NCBI GenBank assembly: GCA_028277405.1
Contig: JANQGH010000085.1
Coordinates: forward strand, 1 to 64,000
Direction of reading: 5' to 3'
Origin: Alphaproteobacteria bacterium
Lineage (GTDB): Bacteria; Pseudomonadota; Alphaproteobacteria; DSM-16000; Inquilinaceae
DNA: 64,000 bases
This document shows positions 3,416 to 37,988 of the stretch, in pieces. The stretch's first letter is position 1. The number at the start of each line of letters is the position of its first letter. The translations under genes and the position numbers were made by a program. The notes beneath the pieces are model-generated. The model saw nothing but the letters and a program-made list of their open reading frames with translations, was not told the origin of the DNA and searched no databases.

Positions 3416-4878
3416 GCAAGAAGCCCTTGTGGACCGCCCAGGATGTGGCGGCAGCGACCAGCGGAACCCCGATCGGCGACTGGGCCGCCAGCGGCGTGTC
3501 TATCGACAGCCGCACCGTGGAGCCCGGCGATCTGTTCATCGCCCTGGTCGGGCCGAACTTCGACGGTCATGACTACGCCGCCGACGCGCTGAAGAAGGGC
3601 GCGGCCGCCGCCATGGTGCATCGGCCGCCGAAATCGGTCGATCCGGACGCGCCGCTGGTGGTGGTCGACGACACCATGGAGGCGCTGACGGCGTTGGGCA
3701 CCTATGCCCGGATGCGCTTCGGCGGCCGCATCGTCGCCGTGACCGGCTCGGTGGGCAAGACCAGCAGCAAGGAGGCGCTGCGCACGGCCCTGTCGGCCCA
3801 GAAGCCGACCTTCGCCACCACGGGCAATCTGAACAACCATTGGGGCGTGCCGCTGAGCCTGTCCCGCATGCCGGCCGGCCATGCCTACGGCGTGCTGGAA
3901 CTGGGCATGAACCACGCCGGGGAGATCGAGCCGCTGTCGCGGCTCTGCAAGCCGGACGTCTCGGTTATCACCACCGTCGAGGCGGTGCATCTGGAGAATT
4001 TCGAGAACGTCGAGGGCATCGCCGACGCCAAGGCTGAGATCTTCGCCGGCATGGACCCGGCCGGCACCGCGGTGCTGAACCGCAACAACCGGCACTTCCC
4101 CCGTCTCGTCGCCCATGCCCGCACCGCCGGCATCGGCCGGGTGTGGAGCTTCGGCGAGCATCCCGACGCCGAGGCGCGGCTGCTCGACTGCTCGCTGCAC
4201 GCCACCTGCAGCGCCGTCAGCGCGTCGATCTGCGGCGAGGTGCTGCAGTATTCCCTGTCCGTGCCCGGCCAGCACTGGGTGCTGAACAGCCTGGGCGTGC
4301 TGCTGGCGGTCAAGGCGCTGGGCGGCGACATTGCCGCCGCGGCGCGGGCGCTGTCCAAGATCCAGCCGCTGAAGGGCCGCGGTGCCCGCAGCCGCATCCG
4401 CGTGCTGCAGGACGACCAGGTCAGCGCCTTCACCCTGATCGACGAGTGCTACAACGCCAGCCCGACCTCCGTCGCCGCCTCGCTGGCGGTGCTGGGCACC
4501 ACAGACCCGGATGGCGGCGGCCGCCGCATCGCCGTGCTGGGCGACATGCTGGAGCTTGGCGAGCAGGCGTCGGACATGCATGTCGGGCTGAAGCAGCCCC
4601 TGGTCGCCGCGGATGTCGACCTGGTCTACGCCTGCGGCCCGCACATGGCCGCACTCTACGATGCGCTGCCGCCTTCGATGCGCGGCGCCTACGCGCCGGA
4701 CAGCCGCGAGCTGGCGGTCAAGGTCGCCGAGGCCGCCCAACCGGGCGACGTGATCATGGTCAAGGGCTCGCTGGGCAGCCGCATGGCGCTGGTGGTCGAC
4801 GCGCTGCAGGCGCTCGACACCGGCGATGACGGGCAGTCGGGGCTGATGTGCCGGCCCCGGGCGGTGAACGGAGGCTAG
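3412..4878 (+). CDS. murF: UDP-MurNAc-tripeptide--D-Ala-D-Ala ligase MurF
   Basis: This Mur ligase adds D-Ala-D-Ala to the UDP-MurNAc-tripeptide, completing the cytoplasmic precursor. It is 488 residues with the N-terminal UDP-binding region typical of MurE/MurF (S-I-D-S-R-T near residue 33), the ATP loop G-S-V-G-K-T-S at 112-118, and the D-E-C-Y-N-A-S-P motif characteristic of MurF in the second half. It is coupled to murE through an ATGA overlap. An AGG-rich site near its stop serves mraY. Confidence 0.97.
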   Translation: MSKKPLWTAQDVAAATSGTPIGDWAASGVSIDSRTVEPGDLFIALVGPNFDGHDYAADALKKGAAAAMVHRPPKSVDPDAPLVVVDDTMEALTALGTYARMRFGGRIVAVTGSVGKTSSKEALRTALSAQKPTFATTGNLNNHWGVPLSLSRMPAGHAYGVLELGMNHAGEIEPLSRLCKPDVSVITTVEAVHLENFENVEGIADAKAEIFAGMDPAGTAVLNRNNRHFPRLVAHARTAGIGRVWSFGEHPDAEARLLDCSLHATCSAVSASICGEVLQYSLSVPGQHWVLNSLGVLLAVKALGGDIAAAARALSKIQPLKGRGARSRIRVLQDDQVSAFTLIDECYNASPTSVAASLAVLGTTDPDGGGRRIAVLGDMLELGEQASDMHVGLKQPLVAADVDLVYACGPHMAALYDALPPSMRGAYAPDSRELAVKVAEAAQPGDVIMVKGSLGSRMALVVDALQALDTGDDGQSGLMCRPRAVNGG

Positions 4879-4881
4879 CGG

Positions 4882-6006
4882 TTGCTCTACAACCTCCTCT
4901 TCCCGCTGGCGGACGAGTTCATCGTCTTCAACCTGTTCCAGTACCTGACGTTCCGCACCGGCGGCGCGCTGATGACGGCGCTGGTCGTCGCCTTCGTGAT
5001 CGGGCCGTCGCTGATCCGCGGGCTGCGCTCGCGCCAGGGCGCCGGCCAGCCGATCCGCGACGACGGGCCGGAAGCGCATTTCGCCAAGCGCGGCACCCCC
5101 ACCATGGGCGGGCTGATGATCCTGATCAGCGTGCTGATCTCGACGCTGCTGTGGGCCGACCTGACCAACGCCTATGTCTGGATAGTCCTGCTGGTGACGA
5201 CCGGCTTCGGGCTGATCGGCTTCTTCGACGACTATCTGAAGCTGACCAAACGCAATTCCCGCGGCCTGCCGGGGCGCGTGAAGCTGCTGTTCCAGGTCCT
5301 GATCGCCGTCGTCGCCACGCTGTTCACCATCGCCGCCTCCGGGGATCTGATGGCGGACCGGTTCGGCCTGCCGGTGCCGGTTTCCTCCTTCTCAACCGGG
5401 CTGGCCGTTCCCTTCGTCAAGGACGTGCTGATCCAGCTGGGCTGGTTCTTCGTGCCCTTCGCCGCGGTGGTGATCGTCGGCGCCTCCAACGCCGTCAACC
5501 TGACCGACGGTCTGGACGGGCTGGCGATCGTTCCGGTGATGATCGCCGCCGGCTGCTTCGGCTTCATCAGCTATCTCGCCGGCAATGTGATCTTCTCCGA
5601 CTACCTGCAGATCCATCATGTCGCCGGGGCCGGCGAGCTGTCCGTGGTGTGCGGCACGCTGATTGGTGCCGGGCTCGGGTTTCTCTGGTTCAACGCGCCG
5701 CCGGCCATGGTGTTCATGGGCGACACCGGCTCGCTCTCGCTGGGCGGCGCGCTCGGCGCCATCAGCGTCGTCACCAAGCACGAGCTGGTGCTGGCGATCA
5801 TTGGCGGGCTGTTCGTGCTGGAGACGGTCTCGGTCATCGTCCAGGTAGCGTCCTTCAAGCTGACCGGACGGCGGGTCTTCCGCATGGCGCCGCTGCACCA
5901 CCACTACGAACAGAAAGGCTGGGCCGAACCGACCATCGTTATCCGCTTCTGGATCATCGCCGTGATCCTGGCCCTGATCGGCCTATCGACGTTGAAGCTG
6001 AGGTGA
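4882..6006 (+). CDS. mraY: Phospho-MurNAc-pentapeptide transferase MraY
   Basis: This integral inner-membrane enzyme moves phospho-MurNAc-pentapeptide to undecaprenyl phosphate to make lipid I. The 374 residues include about ten hydrophobic segments. Catalytic signatures are F-F-D-D-Y (Asp116/Asp117), N-L-T-D-G-L-D-G from 206, and the H-H-H cluster at 339-341. I chose the TTG at 4882 because it follows a GGAGG at 4870-4874 by a normal spacing and gives the family-typical beginning MLYNLL; no ATG fits. It lies three bases after the murF stop. Confidence 0.96.
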
Positions 6007-30132: not shown

Positions 30133-30672
30133 TTGCCGACACATTCAACGGACGACACCGCGATTGCGGTCATCGACGAAGCAATCGCGGCATTCGACGG
30201 CACGCATGTCGAGCCGTTGCGCGAAGCGGCGGGCAAAGCACAGGTCTCGCCTGCCGTCATCGACCGCCTGGTCGATGTCGGTTTCAGCGGTGAGCCAAAC
30301 ACGCAGATCGCGGCGACATGGCTGCTGAAACACTATCTGGAGCAGGGATTCGACCTGACCGATGCGCAGAACGCCGCAATCGCCGACGGCCTCGAACGCC
30401 TAACCGGCTGGGCGGTTCAGCTTCATCTGGCGCAGTCGTTTCGCTGGCTTCACTGTCCCGATGCGCAAGCCGCCAAGGTGGCGGACACTCTCAAGGCTTG
30501 GTTTCAGTCGGACCGCAATTTCCTGCGGGCCTGGGCGTGCGATGCGCTCTGGCAGCTCGGCAAGCAGCATGAAGCCGTCCGGGATACCGCGTTCGAGACA
30601 CTGCTGGCGGCGGAGGCCGACCCCGCCGCATCGGTCAGGGCGCGGGCGCGGAATCTGCTGAAGATGAAATAG
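30133..30672 (+). CDS. HEAT-repeat-like helical protein
   Basis: The 179-residue soluble protein consists of helical hairpins resembling HEAT-type repeats, for example T-Q-I-A-A-T-W-L-L-K-H-Y-L, L-R-A-W-A-C-D-A-L-W-Q-L-G and the final A-S-V-R-A-R-A-R-N-L-L. A DNA glycosylase AlkD-like or regulatory scaffold fold is possible but unproven. The start is TTG at 30133, seven bases after AAGGGG. Its last 38 bases overlap the convergent gene at 30635. Confidence 0.6.
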   Translation: MPTHSTDDTAIAVIDEAIAAFDGTHVEPLREAAGKAQVSPAVIDRLVDVGFSGEPNTQIAATWLLKHYLEQGFDLTDAQNAAIADGLERLTGWAVQLHLAQSFRWLHCPDAQAAKVADTLKAWFQSDRNFLRAWACDALWQLGKQHEAVRDTAFETLLAAEADPAASVRARARNLLKMK

Positions 30673-31462
30673 CCTCGCCCGCGGCTGTTTCCGCCAACAG
30701 CGCTTTTAAGGCCCTGGCGTCCGTCTTCAGATTCTCGATGCTGTCGTCAGCCACGAACTCCAACAAGGCGTAACGCTTGCCAGCGAAGCGGCCTTCCGGG
30801 ATCGCCGCGAGGTAGGCGCGCCAATGCACGGCGCCTTCGGCCAATGGAAAACGCTGGCAATCGGTGTCCCAGTGGAAGACATGCACGAACGCGATGTCGG
30901 TTCCGACCGCTGCAAGCTCGTTCAGCGCCTCGGCCTGCGGGATGCCTGGGCGTGGCTGCCAGTAGAGAAACACCGCCGGGCTGTCGATCGCTTGCACCAG
31001 TTGGACGGCGGACGACGTGCTGTCGGTCAGCGTACCGGGATGAAACTCCAGGCCGATGGCGACGTCATGGGCTGCCGCAACGGCGCCCATCGCGTTGATC
31101 GCATCGACCGCCGCGCGCCTGTCGGTGTCACTGTAGTCAGCCGACGCGCGGCCTTGCCATCCCGGCCAGATGCGGATCATCGGCGCGCCGAGTTCCTGGG
31201 CGGTTTCAAGAACGCGATGGAACGCATCCACCCCATCGGCCGGCGCACGCAGATAGCTGCCGTAGGAACTGACCGTCAGCCCCGCCTCCCGCGTCCAGCG
31301 GCCAACATCTCGGGCCGCGCCCAACCGGCCAGGTGGCACATGAACATCCGCCCCCCACTCTATGGCGGCAAGGCCGGCATCCGACACGATCTTCACGATC
31401 TCCGAGGGTGAGCGATCGCGAAAGGTGACCGAGCATAGGCCGGGCAGAAAGCGCACGCTCAC
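30635..31462 (-). CDS. Sugar phosphate isomerase/epimerase-type TIM barrel
   Basis: The 275-residue protein belongs to the AP_endonuc_2/xylose isomerase-like superfamily. The metal-binding pattern is visible: I-E-W-G near 35, G-L-E-F-H-P-G-T around 139, V-F-H-W-D-T-D around 196 and A-L-L-E-F-V near 236. Members isomerise or epimerise sugars, inosose or hydroxypyruvate. It is the last gene of the minus-strand part of locus A, overlapping the dehydrogenase gene by four bases. Substrate unknown. Confidence 0.82.
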   Translation of the reverse strand: MSVRFLPGLCSVTFRDRSPSEIVKIVSDAGLAAIEWGADVHVPPGRLGAARDVGRWTREAGLTVSSYGSYLRAPADGVDAFHRVLETAQELGAPMIRIWPGWQGRASADYSDTDRRAAVDAINAMGAVAAAHDVAIGLEFHPGTLTDSTSSAVQLVQAIDSPAVFLYWQPRPGIPQAEALNELAAVGTDIAFVHVFHWDTDCQRFPLAEGAVHWRAYLAAIPEGRFAGKRYALLEFVADDSIENLKTDARALKALLAETAAGEAISSSADSAPAP

Positions 31463-32535
31463 GCTTCGCGGTCCAGAAGGTCGGGATTGACCAGATGGCT
31501 CAGCTTCTGTCCCGACACGAACCGCGCGATCTGGTCGACGATCAGGGCGCCCAGCCGGTTGCGCTCGAGCCCCATGGCACCGGCGATATGCGGCGTGATC
31601 AGCACGTTGGGCAGACGATAAAGTGGGCTGTCGGCAGGCAGCACCTCGGGATGGGTGACGTCGATGACCGCGTCGATCCGGCCGGAAAGCAGTTCGCGCT
31701 CCAACGCCGCCTGATCGACGATTGCCCCACGCGCCGTGTTGATCAGCGTACCGCCGTCGGGCATGCGCGCCAGGGCGTCAGCATCGATCATGCCCTTGGT
31801 TGTTTCCAGCAAAGGCGCGTGCAGGGTCACGACATCACAGCCCATGACGGTAGCCAGGTCGCAGGTCTGTGCACCCAGCTTCCGCGCCTCTGCCGCTTCG
31901 ATCCAGGGATCGTAGACGAACAGTTCAAGATCGAACGGTTGCAGCAGTTCGATCACCCGGCGGCCAATGCGCGAGGCGCCGACGATCCCGATGCGCTTGC
32001 GGTAATTGCCGATCGGGCCATCCGCGAGCGCCCGCATCTCATCGTTGATGCCCCGTTCGGTGGTGTAGAGGTGGTGAAACCGGCCGATACGCTTGTTGGC
32101 GAGCAGCACGGCGGCCACGGTGTATTCCGCGACCGGCAGGGCGTTGGCGGCAGCGGCATGGCAGACGCTGATGCCGCGCCGGAAGACCTCGGCCCCCACG
32201 ATGCGCTTCACCGAGCCGGCGGCGTGGGCGATCAGCCGCAATCGCGGTGCCCGGTCCAGCACCGCGCCGTCGATGCGGGGGCAGCCCCAGCCGGTGATCA
32301 GGATTTCGGCGTCGCCGAGCAGATGCCCGGCATCCGAGCTGTCGAAGCCTTGCAGCGGCCGGTTTGCGGGCAATTGGCACAGATCCGACAGCCGGCGCAT
32401 GTGCTCCTCGGTGAAGACATAGCGCGTCTTGTCCGGGTCCATGGCAAAGACCGCGACAGGCCTTGCACCGGCATCGGCCGGCTTTCGATCGAGCCCTTTC
32501 GACGTCGTGTGATCCGGCATGACGGCCTGCCCCAT
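31459..32535 (-). CDS. D-2-hydroxyacid dehydrogenase (PGDH-like)
   Basis: The 358-residue NAD-dependent dehydrogenase has the Rossmann segment G-I-V-G-A-S-R-I-G-R, the catalytic Arg in N-T-A-R-G-A-I-V-D, a Glu in the D-V-T-H-P-E segment, and the catalytic His in L-I-T-P-H-I-A-G. The ATG at 32535 shares a base with the upstream stop (TGATG), suggesting coupling; an ATG at 32520 is an alternative. In this locus it probably oxidises a sugar acid or reduces a keto acid, which is inference. Confidence 0.88.
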   Translation of the reverse strand: MGQAVMPDHTTSKGLDRKPADAGARPVAVFAMDPDKTRYVFTEEHMRRLSDLCQLPANRPLQGFDSSDAGHLLGDAEILITGWGCPRIDGAVLDRAPRLRLIAHAAGSVKRIVGAEVFRRGISVCHAAAANALPVAEYTVAAVLLANKRIGRFHHLYTTERGINDEMRALADGPIGNYRKRIGIVGASRIGRRVIELLQPFDLELFVYDPWIEAAEARKLGAQTCDLATVMGCDVVTLHAPLLETTKGMIDADALARMPDGGTLINTARGAIVDQAALERELLSGRIDAVIDVTHPEVLPADSPLYRLPNVLITPHIAGAMGLERNRLGALIVDQIARFVSGQKLSHLVNPDLLDREA

Positions 32536-33524
32536 CAGATGAAGGGCCGCCGGTCCAGGACCAACTTCAGCGGCTGGTCGGTGCACAGCAGGCCGGGCAG
32601 TGCCTGCTGCAGTTCCGCCAGGGCGCAGAGGACACCGAAGAGGGTATGCAGATCGTTGAGCCCAGGCTCGTCGTCGAAATCGAGGCTCAGGAGCCATTCG
32701 AGGTAGTGGGCTGCGAACTCCGCCAGCGCTGCTTGAGCCTCGCCGAATCTATGATGGCACTGGCGGATCGCCCGGTTCAGGCAGTAGACCCAATCGATCT
32801 CCGCGAAGCTTAGCGTGCGGCCGAGCGGAAACGGGTCGGCGTGCCAGAGGCTCAGGCAGGTGTCGATCAGGGCTTCCGGCGCCGGCAGCGCCACATGGCC
32901 ATGCTGTTGATTGAACAGATAATGAAAGCTACCGGCCAAATGCGGGAAACGGGTGACGATGCCGTCATGGTCGACTGGCGCCACACAGCCGCGGCGCCAC
33001 AGGCCGGTCTGGGGATCGTGTTCCGCCGACAGCCAGTCGAAATAGGCCTCGCGCCAGTCCAATGTCACCTGCCCTGCCAGAACCAGCGCGGCGTAAAGCC
33101 CAGCACCTTGATGGGACGCTCGCCAGGGATCGGCCTGCCAGTCCAACCCGTCGAGGAACCGGGCCATGCGGTCAGGCCGCCGATAGTCGTCCAAAGCGGA
33201 TGGCGGCCGGATCGGGCCTGCATCGAACAGTTCTAACGCCCCCAAGCAGTGGGCCGTGGTGTGGATCGGATGATGGGTGGCTTCGTGCCACAGCCCGTCC
33301 ATTGGGTCCTGCAGATCCCGCAGCGCTTCGATCCAGCAGGCGCGTTCGTCCAGATCCCGCGGAAACCGGCCGATGGTGTAAAGGATATTGGCGGCGTCGG
33401 CGCAGCCATACGGGTTTTCCGACCGCTCCGGCGCATCGGCATATCGACAATAGCGGCCGGGTGCGAGCCTGGCGGCGTCGACGATGCCGGCCGCCTGATC
33501 CACGAAGCCGCGCAGGTCAATCAT
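32535..33524 (-). CDS. Unrecognised alpha/alpha-barrel protein of sugar locus A
   Basis: The 329-residue soluble protein is Trp-, His- and Leu-rich with repeated helical units that contain D-P-x-x-G-L-W (L-R-D-L-Q-D-P-M-D-G-L-W-H-E and S-A-E-H-D-P-Q-T-G-L-W-R-R). Such spacing suggests an alpha/alpha toroid as in terpenoid cyclases, epimerases and many polysaccharide-processing enzymes. The A-T-H-H-P-I-H-T-T-A-H-C segment may be a catalytic or metal site. No signal peptide. It lies between the LacI gene and the dehydrogenase gene. I do not recognise a named family. Confidence 0.65.
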   Translation of the reverse strand: MIDLRGFVDQAAGIVDAARLAPGRYCRYADAPERSENPYGCADAANILYTIGRFPRDLDERACWIEALRDLQDPMDGLWHEATHHPIHTTAHCLGALELFDAGPIRPPSALDDYRRPDRMARFLDGLDWQADPWRASHQGAGLYAALVLAGQVTLDWREAYFDWLSAEHDPQTGLWRRGCVAPVDHDGIVTRFPHLAGSFHYLFNQQHGHVALPAPEALIDTCLSLWHADPFPLGRTLSFAEIDWVYCLNRAIRQCHHRFGEAQAALAEFAAHYLEWLLSLDFDDEPGLNDLHTLFGVLCALAELQQALPGLLCTDQPLKLVLDRRPFI

Positions 33525-33526
33525 GA

Positions 33527-34552
33527 TCAGGCCGGAGCCAACGGGGCCGTGGAGTCCCGGACCACTAGCCGGCAGCCGATATGGATGTCGACGGGCGTCA
33601 ATGTCGGCGTGCGCAGACGATCGAGCAGGCGTGCGACGCTCAAGCGTCCGATCTCGCGTTGATCGACCGCCACCGTGGTCAGGCTCGGCTTCAGGCGCGC
33701 GGTGATCCTGGTGTCGTCGAAACCGACCACCGAATAGTCCTCCGGCACGCGCAAACCCCTCTCGGCGAGCGCCCGGATGACACCGGCGGCAACGAGATCA
33801 TTGCCGCACAGGATCGCCGTGGCGTCGATGCCGCCGGACGCCAGGGCCGACCGCGCCGCCGCATAGGCTGCCTCCGGCTCCAGCGTTTCGATCTCGATGA
33901 CGAGACTCGGGTCGAAGGCCAGGTCGGCATCCCGAAGGGCGGATTTGAAGCCGTCCAGCCGGTCGCGCAGGGTCGGCCGGCCCAGCCAGGTGACGTTGGC
34001 GATCCGCCGATGGCCCAGCTCGATCAGGTGCTTGGTGGCCAGCACGGCACCGCGCCGGTTGGACGGCGTGACACCGTCCAGGCGCATCAACGGGTCGACG
34101 CCGTTGACCAGCAAAGCCCCCCCTGCCCGTTCGGCCGCCACGCCAAGCACCTCCGGGTCGTCGATGCCGATCAGCATCACGCCGCTGCCCGAACGCTCGT
34201 CGCAATGGGCGGCGACACGCTCGACGCCCGATCGATCCCCCTCGACGAACACGGTTTCCATGGGCACGCCGCGCCTGTCGAGTTCCTCTTGGATGCTGTC
34301 GACGATTTCCTGATAGAAGCCCGACGAGGTCGTCGGAAAGACGTTCATGGCGACAAACAGCGCCACCTCGGTGGCCGGCCCAACCCGCTCGCCCACCGAA
34401 TAGCCCAGTTCGGCCGCCAGGGTCGCGATCCGACGGCGCATCTCGCCGCTGATGCCGGCCGAGTTGCTGAGCGCACGAGACACCGTGCTGACCGAAACGC
34501 CGGCCGCGCGTGCGATATCGCGTTGATTGGGTGTGCGATCCGTAACCGCCAT
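33527..34552 (-). CDS. LacI family transcriptional regulator
   Basis: The 341-residue regulator has an N-terminal LacI helix-turn-helix (N-Q-R-D-I-A-R-A-A-G-V-S-V-S-T-V-S-R-A-L, about 9-28), hinge, and a periplasmic-binding-protein-like sugar domain. The ATG at 34552 follows GGGGAA; upstream in-frame starts were rejected because they precede the HTH by over 100 unrelated residues. It is divergent from the importer genes at 34821 and should bind the palindrome at 34671-34686. Confidence 0.93.
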   Translation of the reverse strand: MAVTDRTPNQRDIARAAGVSVSTVSRALSNSAGISGEMRRRIATLAAELGYSVGERVGPATEVALFVAMNVFPTTSSGFYQEIVDSIQEELDRRGVPMETVFVEGDRSGVERVAAHCDERSGSGVMLIGIDDPEVLGVAAERAGGALLVNGVDPLMRLDGVTPSNRRGAVLATKHLIELGHRRIANVTWLGRPTLRDRLDGFKSALRDADLAFDPSLVIEIETLEPEAAYAAARSALASGGIDATAILCGNDLVAAGVIRALAERGLRVPEDYSVVGFDDTRITARLKPSLTTVAVDQREIGRLSVARLLDRLRTPTLTPVDIHIGCRLVVRDSTAPLAPA

Positions 34553-34820: not shown

Positions 34821-36107
34821 ATGAAGGGCACGCTGGGGATCACGGTATGCGTCGCGGCGCTGATGGCGGCGAACGCGGCAACCGCGCAGGAACTGGTGAT
34901 CTGGCACGACAAGGGCGATGACGGCCTGGCCATGATCGAGGAGATGTCGGCGCTGTTCGAAGCGCAGCATCCCGGCGTTACGGTCACGTCCCTGTCCTAT
35001 CCGACCGAGCAATGGTTCAACCGGTCGATCGCCGGGCTGAACACCAATACCGGGCCGGACATCCTGTTCAACGACAACAACCGCATTGCCACGATCCAGC
35101 AGTCGACCGGCCGGCTATGCTCCGTGGCTGATCTGGTCGACGCCCTGCCGGACGGCGACCGGGCCTATATCACGGACGGCGACATCGCCTCGGCCACCTT
35201 GGAAGGCGACATCATCATGATGCCGTTCCAGCGGGTCGTGATTGGCTGGGGCGCGCGCCAAAGCTGGCTGGATGCGGTCGGCGAAGAGTATCCGGAGACC
35301 TGGGACGACATGATCCGCATCGCCCAACTGTTCCAGGACACCGATCCCGACGGCAATGGCGAGGACGACACGTTTGGCGTGGCGCTGCAGGCCGGCTCCG
35401 CCCCGTCCATGATCGGCGCGGGCACGCGCATGTTTGCCATCGCGGGTAACGGCGTGCCCTACGACATCATGAACACGGACGCCGAGATCGTCATTACCGA
35501 TCCCACTGTGGCCGATCCGACCATCGGCATCCTGCAACTGTTCACCGAACACGGCCTGGTGTCGCCGGACACGGTGAACCACAACTTCACCGACATGTAT
35601 CAGTTGATCGAGGGCGGCCGCGTCGGCTTCTTCCGGGTCGGTAACTGGAATGTCGCCAAGTGGGATCGCGAAGCGCTGGAAGGCGACTATGTTGTCGGCC
35701 CCTACCCCAGCCACATCGAGGGCCAGCCAGGACACATGCTGGTCAACACGGTCCGCGGCATGGCCGTGCCGTGCGACGGCGACAATGTCGATCTGGCACG
35801 CGACTTCGTCTCATTCATCGTCTCGCAGGAGGCCCAGCAGGCCTCGCTTGATCATATGGGCGGCGTGGTCCGCGACGATCTCGACATCAGCGGCGTGACG
35901 CCGGGACTGACCCCCTTCGTCAGTGGTGAATACCCGATGGCAACGGACAGCTTCATGGCCTCGATCCATCCCTGGTATCCGGAACTTGAAGAGGCGTATT
36001 ACCGGCACCTGATCGATGCGGTCAGCAACCCGCCGCAGGATTGGGACGCGTGGCTGCAGGCGACCGCCGAAGACTTGCAAAACACCGTTGCGGAATTGCA
36101 GAACTAA
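34821..36107 (+). CDS. Sugar ABC transporter substrate-binding protein (locus A)
   Basis: The 428-residue family 1 solute-binding protein has a Sec signal peptide ending A-N-A-A-T-A-Q-E, then L-V-I-W-H-D-K-G and the P-D-I-L-F-N-D motif typical of CUT1-type sugar binders. It should capture an oligo- or monosaccharide in the periplasm. GGAGGG precedes the ATG; longer readings begin inside the divergent regulator. A hairpin follows it at 36125, often seen where binding protein mRNA is kept more abundant than the permeases. Confidence 0.9.
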   Translation: MKGTLGITVCVAALMAANAATAQELVIWHDKGDDGLAMIEEMSALFEAQHPGVTVTSLSYPTEQWFNRSIAGLNTNTGPDILFNDNNRIATIQQSTGRLCSVADLVDALPDGDRAYITDGDIASATLEGDIIMMPFQRVVIGWGARQSWLDAVGEEYPETWDDMIRIAQLFQDTDPDGNGEDDTFGVALQAGSAPSMIGAGTRMFAIAGNGVPYDIMNTDAEIVITDPTVADPTIGILQLFTEHGLVSPDTVNHNFTDMYQLIEGGRVGFFRVGNWNVAKWDREALEGDYVVGPYPSHIEGQPGHMLVNTVRGMAVPCDGDNVDLARDFVSFIVSQEAQQASLDHMGGVVRDDLDISGVTPGLTPFVSGEYPMATDSFMASIHPWYPELEEAYYRHLIDAVSNPPQDWDAWLQATAEDLQNTVAELQN

Positions 36108-36124
36108 GCCCGCGATTTGATTGG

Positions 36125-36157
36125 GCCGGGCGGCCTTTCGGTCGTCCGGCAGCCTTT
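36125..36157 (+). terminator. Hairpin between binding protein and permease genes
   Basis: GCCGGGCGGCC (36125-36135) pairs with GGTCGTCCGGC (36140-36150) through 11 consecutive pairs, two of them G-U, across a TTTC loop; AGCCTTTTCC follows. It probably acts as a partial terminator or 3' stabiliser that lowers permease expression relative to the binding protein. Confidence 0.65.
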
Positions 36158-36174
36158 TCCTGGGGGTTGGAGTG

Positions 36175-37116
36175 ATGACGACGGCTGTTGCAACGGCCAC
36201 GCCACGGCGCCTCCTGCCCCATTTGTCGCGCAAGGCGGCCGGCAATGCGTGGCACAAGCGCACGCTCTATCTGTTCCTGCTGCCTTTCGCCGCCCTGACG
36301 GCGATCTTCGGCCTGTGGCCGATCGGGCAGAGCATTTATCTCTCCTTCACCGAAAGCTACACAGCACTCAGCCCCCAGCCTGTCTTTGTCGGGCTGGAGA
36401 ACTTCCGCGAGATCCTCAGCAATCCGGACTTTCTGGACTCGTTGTGGCGGACGCTGCTGTTCACCTTCGTCTCGGTCGTGCTGAACGTTCTGGTCGCGCT
36501 CGTCCTCGCGGTCATGCTGTCGCAACCGATCCTGGAGCGCGGCCGCACGCTGTTCAAGCTGGCGATCTTCCTGCCGGTCATCACCCCGGACGTCGCCGGT
36601 TTCATCGTCTGGAAATGGATGTTCAATCAGGATTTCGGCGTCGTGAACGCGGTGTTGCACGGCCTCGGCCTGCCGGCGTTTCCGGGCGTGACCGAGCCGG
36701 TGTCGGCCTTCGCGACCCTGACCATTGTTGAGCTGTGGCACCATGTCGGCCTCTACACGCTTATCTTCCTGACCAACCTGCAGCTTTTGGATCGCGACCT
36801 GGACGAGGCCGCGCGCATCGACGGTGCCACCCGCTGGCAGCGGTTTCGCTATGTCACCCTGCCCCAGCTCAGGCCCGCCATCATTATCAACTCGGTCTAC
36901 GCGCTGATCGAGTTCCTGAAGACCTTCACCGTCATCGTGGTGATCACGCGCGGCGGGCCGAACTTTTCGACCAACTTCGTCTCCTACTTCGCCTACACCA
37001 AGTTCGGCAACGCCCAGTACGGCGAAGCCATGGCGATGGCGACGGTGCTGTTCGCAGCAGTCGCGGTGCTTGCGGCGGCCCTCGTTTGGGCGATGAGCCG
37101 GGGGGACTATCGATGA
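36175..37116 (+). CDS. Sugar ABC transporter permease 1 (locus A)
   Basis: The 313-residue inner-membrane protein has six predicted helices and the permease EAA loop E-A-A-R-I-D-G-A-T-R-W-Q-R-F, matching MalF/UgpA-type CUT1 permeases. The ATG at 36175 follows GTTGGAG. The stop overlaps the second permease gene (ATGA). The matching ATPase gene is not present in this locus. Confidence 0.92.
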   Translation: MTTAVATATPRRLLPHLSRKAAGNAWHKRTLYLFLLPFAALTAIFGLWPIGQSIYLSFTESYTALSPQPVFVGLENFREILSNPDFLDSLWRTLLFTFVSVVLNVLVALVLAVMLSQPILERGRTLFKLAIFLPVITPDVAGFIVWKWMFNQDFGVVNAVLHGLGLPAFPGVTEPVSAFATLTIVELWHHVGLYTLIFLTNLQLLDRDLDEAARIDGATRWQRFRYVTLPQLRPAIIINSVYALIEFLKTFTVIVVITRGGPNFSTNFVSYFAYTKFGNAQYGEAMAMATVLFAAVAVLAAALVWAMSRGDYR

Positions 37117-37988
37117 GCGGGCCGGCGCGGAAAAAGCCAAGCGCGGCGAGCCGGCTGGCCATCCAGGTGGTCGCCTACGCCGCCGCGATCGCGATCTCGA
37201 TCTTCTTCGTCTACCCGTTCTACTGGATGATCGTGAACTCGTTCCGCACCCAGGAGGCGGTGCTGTCGCGCCCGCTGGCCCTGTTGCCGGAACAGTTCGA
37301 TTTCGCGGCCTATGAGACCATCGCCAATATCGGCGGCGTTTCCCTGACCACGTACTTGACCAACTCGCTGCTGATCACGGCGGTCGCCACGGCGCTGGGC
37401 GTCTCGATCATGGCCATGGGCGCCTATGCGCTTTACCGGTCGCCCAAGCTGCCGCTGTTCGGCACGGTGCGGAACACGTTCCTGGTCGCGATCATGTATC
37501 CCAACATGCTGTTGGTAATTCCGCTTTACTTCGTCGTCTATTATCTGGGCCTGCTGCAAAGCCAGGCCGGAAACTATGTCGGCATCGTGCTGTCGATCAG
37601 CATTGTGCCGCTGGTGTTCATCCTGTTCCTACAGTTCTTCCGCAACATCCCCAGCGAACTGTTGGACGCCGCCGTCATGGACGGGGCGACGGAATGGCAG
37701 ATTTTCCGGCGCATCGTCCTGCCGCTGGCCAAGCCCGTCGTTCTGACCGCCTGTTTGATCGCCGTCTTGCTGAACTGGAAGCAATGGTTTCAGATCCTGG
37801 TGATCTCGACCTCGCCGGACACCTACACGCTGCCGGTCGCCCTCTTGTCGCTGAACACCGAATATGGCGTAAACTTCCAGGCGACCATGGCGCTGGCCAC
37901 CTTGACCTGCGTGCCGGTGATCATCGTGTTCATCCTTACCCAGCGACGGGTGATGAGCGGCTTCTTGGCAGGCGCGGTGAAGGGCTGA
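37113..37988 (+). CDS. Sugar ABC transporter permease 2 (locus A)
   Basis: The 291-residue MalG/UgpE-type permease has six helices with F-F-V-Y-P-F-Y-W-M-I-V-N-S-F in the first and the EAA loop L-L-D-A-A-V-M-D-G-A-T-E-W-Q-I-F. It is translationally coupled to permease 1. The importer ends here without an ATP-binding gene, so a shared ATPase must energise it, possibly the TOBE-containing one at 52616 or one elsewhere. Confidence 0.92.
   Translation: MSGPARKKPSAASRLAIQVVAYAAAIAISIFFVYPFYWMIVNSFRTQEAVLSRPLALLPEQFDFAAYETIANIGGVSLTTYLTNSLLITAVATALGVSIMAMGAYALYRSPKLPLFGTVRNTFLVAIMYPNMLLVIPLYFVVYYLGLLQSQAGNYVGIVLSISIVPLVFILFLQFFRNIPSELLDAAVMDGATEWQIFRRIVLPLAKPVVLTACLIAVLLNWKQWFQILVISTSPDTYTLPVALLSLNTEYGVNFQATMALATLTCVPVIIVFILTQRRVMSGFLAGAVKG

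Follow-up and report, generated by a model that had tools for sequence, protein, structure and literature searches.

A toroid protein of the terpenoid-cyclase/protein-prenyltransferase superfamily in an alphaproteobacterial sugar operon, and its possible role in opening sugar-acid catabolism

What does a protein of no recognizable family do when its gene is placed between the regulator and the dehydrogenase of a sugar operon? We examined this question for a 329-amino-acid protein (termed P0001) encoded within a 64,000-nucleotide stretch of DNA from an alphaproteobacterium of the Inquilinaceae (positions 1 to 64,000 of contig JANQGH010000085.1, assembly GCA_028277405.1; hereafter the window). 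Its open reading frame (ORF; 32535..33524, minus strand, ATG start) was assessed from the ORF list, family searches and a predicted model. A first-pass annotation, made from the sequence alone, had described an ORF of this length with two D-P-x-x-G-L-W units and a His-rich segment, and each of these was present; the ORF is real. The units start at residues 73 and 170 (about 0.0006 copies of one such unit would be expected in a random protein of P0001 composition), and the His-rich segment, ATHHPIHTTAHC, has residue 82 as its first residue. The reading we favour, at a little below an even chance, is that P0001 is a toroid-superfamily enzyme turned to sugar catabolism, which would take the opening step on an imported uronide or sugar-acid derivative, probably by dehydration or beta-elimination. 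That P0001 serves sugar catabolism in some manner is, taken separately, likely.

P0001 gave no matches at expect values (E) up to 1 in searches of Pfam, NCBIfam and the PDB sequences, in agreement with the initial failure to name a family. When AlphaFold2 was supplied with alignment A1 (21 rows, comprising the window protein and related-locus sequences), the model obtained had a predicted local distance difference test score (pLDDT) of 94.6 and a predicted template modelling score of 0.92, with alternating helices running through six hairpins. The top VIA-align match to this model was protein farnesyltransferase beta (Z 19.4, root-mean-square deviation 4.2, 287 of 329 residues), followed by geranylgeranyltransferases, and then by squalene-hopene cyclases and MstE at Z 14-15. 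In Foldseek, class II terpene cyclases led, members of glycoside hydrolase (GH) family GH76 were found at ranks 8, 9, 18 and 21, transcobalamin was also present, and the beta-D-glucuronate dehydratase BcGDH (9o4u) was at rank 37 (TM 0.32). Two results weigh against this picture: the model from a single sequence was poor (pLDDT 42, unusable), and Foldseek gave no PDB match below E 0.001, the best being MstE at 0.01.

Sequence homology to the superfamily was detectable through intermediates only. The A1 profile matched that of alignment A3 (14 distant relatives) at E 7.5e-47 in a pairwise comparison; the A3 profile in turn matched Rab geranylgeranyltransferase (GGTase) beta at E 7e-9 for the whole chain (single stretches were at about 0.05 and out of repeat register) and squalene-cyclase-type proteins at E 6.5e-5 to 1e-4. 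With a joint profile of 23 sequences, the values were 5.5e-8 for Rab GGTase beta and 0.002 to 0.007 for the cyclases. Because structural matches and homology through distant relatives agree, it is close to certain that P0001, as modelled, is an (alpha/alpha)6 toroid of the terpenoid-cyclase/protein-prenyltransferase superfamily; we take the D-P-x-x-G-L-W units to resemble the repeat motif of that superfamily. The toroid fold proposed in the first-pass annotation was in this way borne out by a confident model, and the profile search for relatives that it had called for supplied the superfamily; its suggestion of a sugar lyase or hydrolase gained no support as regards kinship, the nearest superfamily being that of the terpenoid cyclases and protein prenyltransferases.

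The fold itself could mean that P0001 is an isoprenoid or prenyl-transfer enzyme whose sugar neighbours are incidental. Prenyltransferases and terpene cyclases are its top structural and transitive sequence matches, and at one locus (L018:6158-9038) about 50 bp separate DXS from the core toroid gene that comes after it, with a farnesyl diphosphate synthase gene nearby, a point that also weighs against a sugar role. The other neighbours at L018, named by eye, were housekeeping-like. Isoprenoid context was, however, seen at this locus only, whereas LacI or AraC regulators and ATP-binding cassette (ABC) transporters mark the window, Microvirga and the other informative loci as sugar operons. Class II terpene cyclases have a conserved DXDD motif; P0001 shares the toroid fold with squalene-hopene cyclase and MstE, and its distant relatives match them weakly, but its DFDD string is in a variable loop of A1, and hence the family has no conserved DXDD motif. 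The protein prenyltransferase beta subunits (farnesyl- and geranylgeranyltransferase; PF00432) are toroids like P0001 over the whole length, but P0001 has no direct Pfam match, its context is sugar uptake, and in the register proposed below Asp would stand in the place of the Cys ligand and Glu in that of the Asp ligand. By its sequence, P0001 appears to be without the defining motifs of either group, and we consider an isoprenoid function very improbable.

We examined where the residues conserved within the family fall on the toroid. In A1 every inner helix was more conserved than every outer one, and the region at the N-ends of the six inner helices, which spans 78 of 329 positions, contained 11 of the 16 His, Asp or Glu positions kept at 90% or more (p 1e-4); in a larger alignment (A2) it contained 9 of 14 such positions (p 1e-3). 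Against this, the mean conservation of the N-end region, which is a weak measure alone, was matched by 19 of 328 circular shifts of A1 (6%) and 23 of 328 of A2. The stretch E81-H92 (33249..33284, minus strand), with conserved E81, H84, H85, H88 and H92 as judged from A1 and the model, is situated before and at the N-end of inner helix 4, and each of its four His residues was kept in at least 90% of the 21 rows. The His cluster was also tried as a statistical oddity and rejected, since 1615 of 10000 shuffles had as many His in 12 residues; from the aligned sequences, it appears to be the conservation of the cluster that matters and not its density. The first-pass annotation had proposed to look for these residues in a central cavity; they do occupy the N-ends of alternate (inner) helices of the model, as a cavity needs, and a shared cavity is presumed. 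H201 is in an inner helix and outside the N-end region as defined. Within the wider 23-row set, D244 was found in 22 rows, and H88, H138, H201 and H293 recurred in many distant rows. The C-terminal tail P318-I329 (PLKLVLDRRPFI; 32538..32573, minus strand) had 11 of its 12 residues kept in at least 90% of A1 rows. The active site would then be the mouth of the barrel, where E81, H84, H88, H92, H138, H201, E242, D244 and H293 are predicted at or near the N-ends of inner helices.

The zinc ligands of prenyltransferases are D-x-C and H. At positions 242, 244 and 293 the toroid family has E/Q242-x-D244 and H293, with Cys absent there, and the spacing from D244 to H293 in P0001 is 49, compared to 50 from C to H in the Rab GGTase beta chain. 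The segment E242-H293 (32646..32801, minus strand) may thus be a remodelled metal site in which E242-x-D244 and H293 are at places comparable to the prenyltransferase ligands; we offer the residue-level match as a proposal, its register resting on spacing and fold only, and suppose that a metal could be held there. The string HTLFG of Rab GGTase beta was considered as proof of a shared zinc site and rejected. Of this string only H-x-L-F-G, which opens the last inner helix, is common to the whole toroid family; the Rab GGTase fragment fitted the last hairpin of P0001 (raw score 45, reached by 1 of 500 shuffles with a mean of 24) but not those of 20 relatives (25-33, several scoring higher at early hairpins, up to 40). 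The HMMER stretches aligned the first hairpins of the toroid family with the last ones of the GGTase, and so do not fix the register.

The gene order within the window is LacI regulator, toroid, dehydrogenase and triosephosphate isomerase (TIM) barrel, with genes for a solute-binding protein and two ABC permeases divergent from the LacI gene; the flanking genes originally named for P0001 were correct. The LacI-family regulator (33527..34552, minus strand) is 2 nt upstream of the toroid gene; its ORF is open to 34987, and the position of the helix-turn-helix suggests a start near 34552. The ATG of the 2-hydroxyacid dehydrogenase gene (31459..32535, minus strand) overlaps the toroid stop (TGATG), and the GTG start of the gene for an AP_endonuc_2 (xylose-isomerase-like) TIM barrel (30635..31462, minus strand) overlaps the dehydrogenase stop (GTGA). 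On the plus strand are the extracellular solute-binding protein (34821..36107, probable start within an ORF from 34527), a sugar ABC permease (36121..37116), and a second sugar ABC permease (36735..37988 as an ORF, the true start probably near 37.1 kb).

Much of this arrangement was found in other bacteria. A Microvirga ossetica plasmid encodes a toroid, annotated "hypothetical protein", that is 53% identical to P0001, within an operon whose LacI regulator (39%), solute-binding protein (55%), permeases (66 and 62%) and dehydrogenase (52%) are likewise identical to those of the window at the levels shown. The gene after this core toroid (L131:13016-14077) encodes a second, distant toroid, 30% identical to P0001 and also annotated hypothetical. 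With the dehydrogenase as bait, we obtained operons from Sinorhizobium meliloti and Chelatococcus with the order LacI-DUF2264-dehydrogenase-TIM barrel, of which the dehydrogenase was 55%, the TIM barrel 50-51% and the LacI regulator 36-38% identical to their window counterparts; the S. meliloti 2011 DUF2264 gene is on pSymB. A profile scan of 27 dehydrogenase loci found DUF2264 in 14 (13 inside the gene cluster, one about 6 kb off), a core toroid in 5, both in none and neither in 8, and the window genome had zero DUF2264 matches.

DUF2264 proteins are related to an enzyme of known activity: the A. vitis protein matched a beta-D-glucuronate dehydratase of solved structure (9o4u) at E 6e-30, and the strings NNW and FGRS were kept in four DUF2264 proteins that are 59-66% identical to one another. 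Those of S. meliloti and Chelatococcus (L134:7151-9004, L135:7124-8989) share about 60% identity with the A. vitis protein, and a Phyllobacterium DUF2264 gene (L149, near 4120-5827) is in two open pieces and may be frameshifted. For BcGDH, N176, N177, W178, Y229, R285 and Y289 are reported as active-site residues, and alanine replacement of residues lying within NNW and FGRS left the enzyme inactive on chondrosine, itself a poor substrate (PMC12269599). From the mutant chain sequence, the R of FGRS is probably R285. P0001 and the DUF2264 (former GH154) dehydratases are alike in occupying the same slot of a LacI-X-dehydrogenase-TIM operon, and each type has been seen beside GH88 at other loci; P0001 differs in having no homology to PF10022 or BcGDH, no NNW or FGRS strings, and no DUF2264_C match.

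More distant members of the dehydrogenase group (38-43% identical, R. leguminosarum 43%) occur in operons of R. leguminosarum and R. etli that have a GH39 gene two genes upstream; the R. leguminosarum GH39 protein matches 5ndx and alpha-L-iduronidases (E 1e-74), that of R. etli is 92% identical to it, and both adjoin an isomerase annotated as KduI/IolB family or 5-deoxy-glucuronate isomerase. In A. pusense the neighbours of the dehydrogenase and an annotated TIM barrel include an alginate lyase and a member of the glucarate dehydratase family. Judged by these gene neighbourhoods, the dehydrogenase group often accompanies genes for uronate-type sugars, and the toroid appears in the DUF2264 position.

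On the favoured reading, P0001 would be a probably cytoplasmic enzyme whose substrate is the compound that the neighbouring ABC transporter brings in (most likely a uronide or another derivative of a sugar acid), and would take the opening step ahead of the 2-hydroxyacid dehydrogenase and the TIM-barrel isomerase, replacing the uronate-dehydratase-related DUF2264 protein of the counterpart operons. Because P0001 is in the place of DUF2264, dehydration or beta-elimination at the sugar ring would be the most likely chemistry. The first-pass notion that P0001 opens the pathway gained support from the glucuronate-dehydratase-related protein at the same operon place, and the activity itself stays conjectural. 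We put the chance that P0001 does the same step as DUF2264 at about even, and the chance that this chemistry is dehydration at somewhat less than even. The fuller proposal, that P0001 represents a new enzyme class, i.e., a sugar-acid (uronide) dehydratase/lyase built upon the prenyltransferase/terpene-cyclase toroid with its zinc site remodelled to Glu/Asp/His, and replacing an unrelated DUF2264 in an otherwise conserved operon, is possible but doubtful.

Several results count against this reading. The solute-binding protein of the window has no match in those of S. meliloti and Chelatococcus, so a different compound may be imported there. DUF2264 and the toroid have no detectable homology, and like position therefore need not mean like reaction; Martelella and A. 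vitis carry both DUF2264 and a fusion of a distant toroid with a hexapeptide acyltransferase. Of the five dehydrogenase loci with a core toroid, one is the window and the other four (Microvirga, L014, L016 and L089) were found via the toroid, while among the 22 loci found via the dehydrogenase (G071 and 21 plasmid loci chosen by hand from 100 and 410 listed records) 14 had DUF2264 and none a core toroid; moreover, 6 of 9 strict DUF2264-dehydrogenase-TIM loci are from Sinorhizobium. The counts thus lack independence, and replacement is argued chiefly from the contrast of the window and Microvirga operons with the rhizobial ones. Within the window's class the dehydrogenase was present in 2 of 376 genomes at E 1e-60 (with no more than five candidates per genome scored), too few for a survey of the operon. 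What tells most heavily against the simplest pathway is the lack of any GH88/GH105 match in the window genome, which leaves a simple dehydratase-then-GH88 route short of its second enzyme there.

The same gap would be expected if P0001 were a hydrolase or other sugar-processing enzyme (glycosidase, epimerase or glycosidic-bond lyase) and not a dehydratase, as one-step cleavage of an imported glycoside would need no GH88. GH88/105 and DUF2264 both being unmatched in the window genome favours a one-step hydrolase, as do the GH39 protein (probably a true hydrolase) of the R. leguminosarum operon with the related dehydrogenase, likewise in R. etli, and the GH88, GH4 and GH39 genes near other toroid copies. 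P0001, however, matches no glycosidase family. It shares the alpha/alpha toroid with the six-hairpin glycosidases GH88, GH105 and GH76, the last being among the better Foldseek matches, but has no GH88 Pfam match (PF07470), and none of these glycosidases is among the best 50 VIA-align matches listed. Further, toroids adjoining GH88 (L087) or GH4 (L006) would partly duplicate the role of the neighbour. The one-step hydrolase is a serious rival to the dehydratase, and we rate it as unlikely.

The neighbours of other toroid genes were compared with control ORFs. Binding-protein-dependent permeases made up 9 of 100 toroid neighbours (from 26 loci other than the window) and at most 1 of 100 controls (Fisher p 0.002-0.009); dehydrogenase enrichment alone was not significant (3 versus 0 or 1, p 0.12-0.31). 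These figures are for the 25 commonest families listed, so that a control family outside them may hold one member; the controls were the first 100 of 120 ORFs from the same genomes, taken from stretches that lie for the most part where contigs begin. ORF calling was by a simple script, so that some ORFs are spurious. In a profile scan of 31 toroid loci (near-duplicates counted), 3 had the dehydrogenase, 1 had GH88 and 0 had DUF2264; all three were zero in 27 control stretches. At L087 the next gene is a clear GH88 unsaturated glucuronyl hydrolase (PDB match E 7.7e-58), GH4 is directly downstream of the toroid gene at L006, and a 1028-aa protein matching GH106 alpha-L-rhamnosidase adjoins it at L089:9607-12693. 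L012 has the toroid in a cluster with ABC, isomerase, kinase, aldolase and GH36 genes; GH39 is about 6 kb from the toroid at L008, GH3 is at L005, sulfatases are nearby at L002, L017 and L097, and L001 has mandelate-racemase, short-chain dehydrogenase/reductase and lactonase genes. Several toroid loci were, by eye, without sugar genes (e.g., L010, L013, L018, L095 and L096), which also counts against the favoured reading. In the collection of papers searched, nothing relevant on toroid proteins in sugar operons was found, nor was the term DUF2264.

P0001 might alternatively be a non-enzymatic toroid that binds a ligand or regulates, as a sugar sensor or a partner of the transporter or regulator. 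Toroid binding proteins exist, transcobalamin being among the Foldseek matches, and a divergent Verrucomicrobiota subfamily (L098-L103 and L033; 205-242 bits versus the core profile) departs from the core family. In the L033 toroid much of the conserved His/Asp set is gone, with H88 and H293 retained, a loss which suggests, from the sequence, another role for that subfamily; the L098 toroid adjoins a Ser/Thr protein kinase and glutamine synthetase, and matching clusters are in L100 and L103. The core family nevertheless keeps its His, Asp and Glu set and nearly invariant tail across phyla, as enzymes do, and the operon position is that of DUF2264, which is kin to a known enzyme. We consider a binding role improbable.

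The toroid gene was rare in the sampled genomes and scattered over phyla. From 47 pattern matches we obtained 21 related loci, which by their record titles are from Planctomycetota, Bacillota, Chloroflexi, Myxococcota, Verrucomicrobia and an uncultured proteobacterium; relatives were 43-58% identical to P0001 in the alignment. Within the window's class it was present in 1 of 385 genomes, namely the window's own, and in 0 of 60 other relatives. Two clostridial orders gave 6 of 245 and 6 of 248 genomes (centre genomes counted; one of the first six had a distant relative only), a Chloroflexota class 9 of 298 (8 with distant relatives only), and a Verrucomicrobiota class 18 of 240 (4 with the core family, others more distant). 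Phage records held zero relatives of the protein. In a 35-row tree (L017 and L021 left out), P0001 fell within an unresolved nine-row group drawn from several phyla; the tree did not settle the origin of the window copy or demonstrate transfer, and the rarity in the window's class is the sole hint of it. Fusions of a distant toroid with a hexapeptide-repeat acyltransferase at the N-terminus were seen at L038, L056, L057, L082, L132:8287-9930, L133:8329-10008 and L136:9002-10639 (those of L056, L057 and L082 recognised by eye); on A. vitis, Streptomyces and Martelella plasmids such fusions are beside DUF2264, GH88 or GH28 genes.

If the favoured reading is true, a fold familiar from isoprenoid chemistry would have been recruited into sugar catabolism, and P0001 would be, to our knowledge, the first member of its superfamily to act on sugars. 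A conserved family caught in these searches by no Pfam or NCBIfam model would gain a testable function; as the DUF2264 counterpart is on pSymB of S. meliloti 2011, a laboratory strain that is easy to work with, that function could be tested by gene swap. A role would likewise follow for the related acyltransferase-toroid fusions encoded beside GH88 or GH28 genes.

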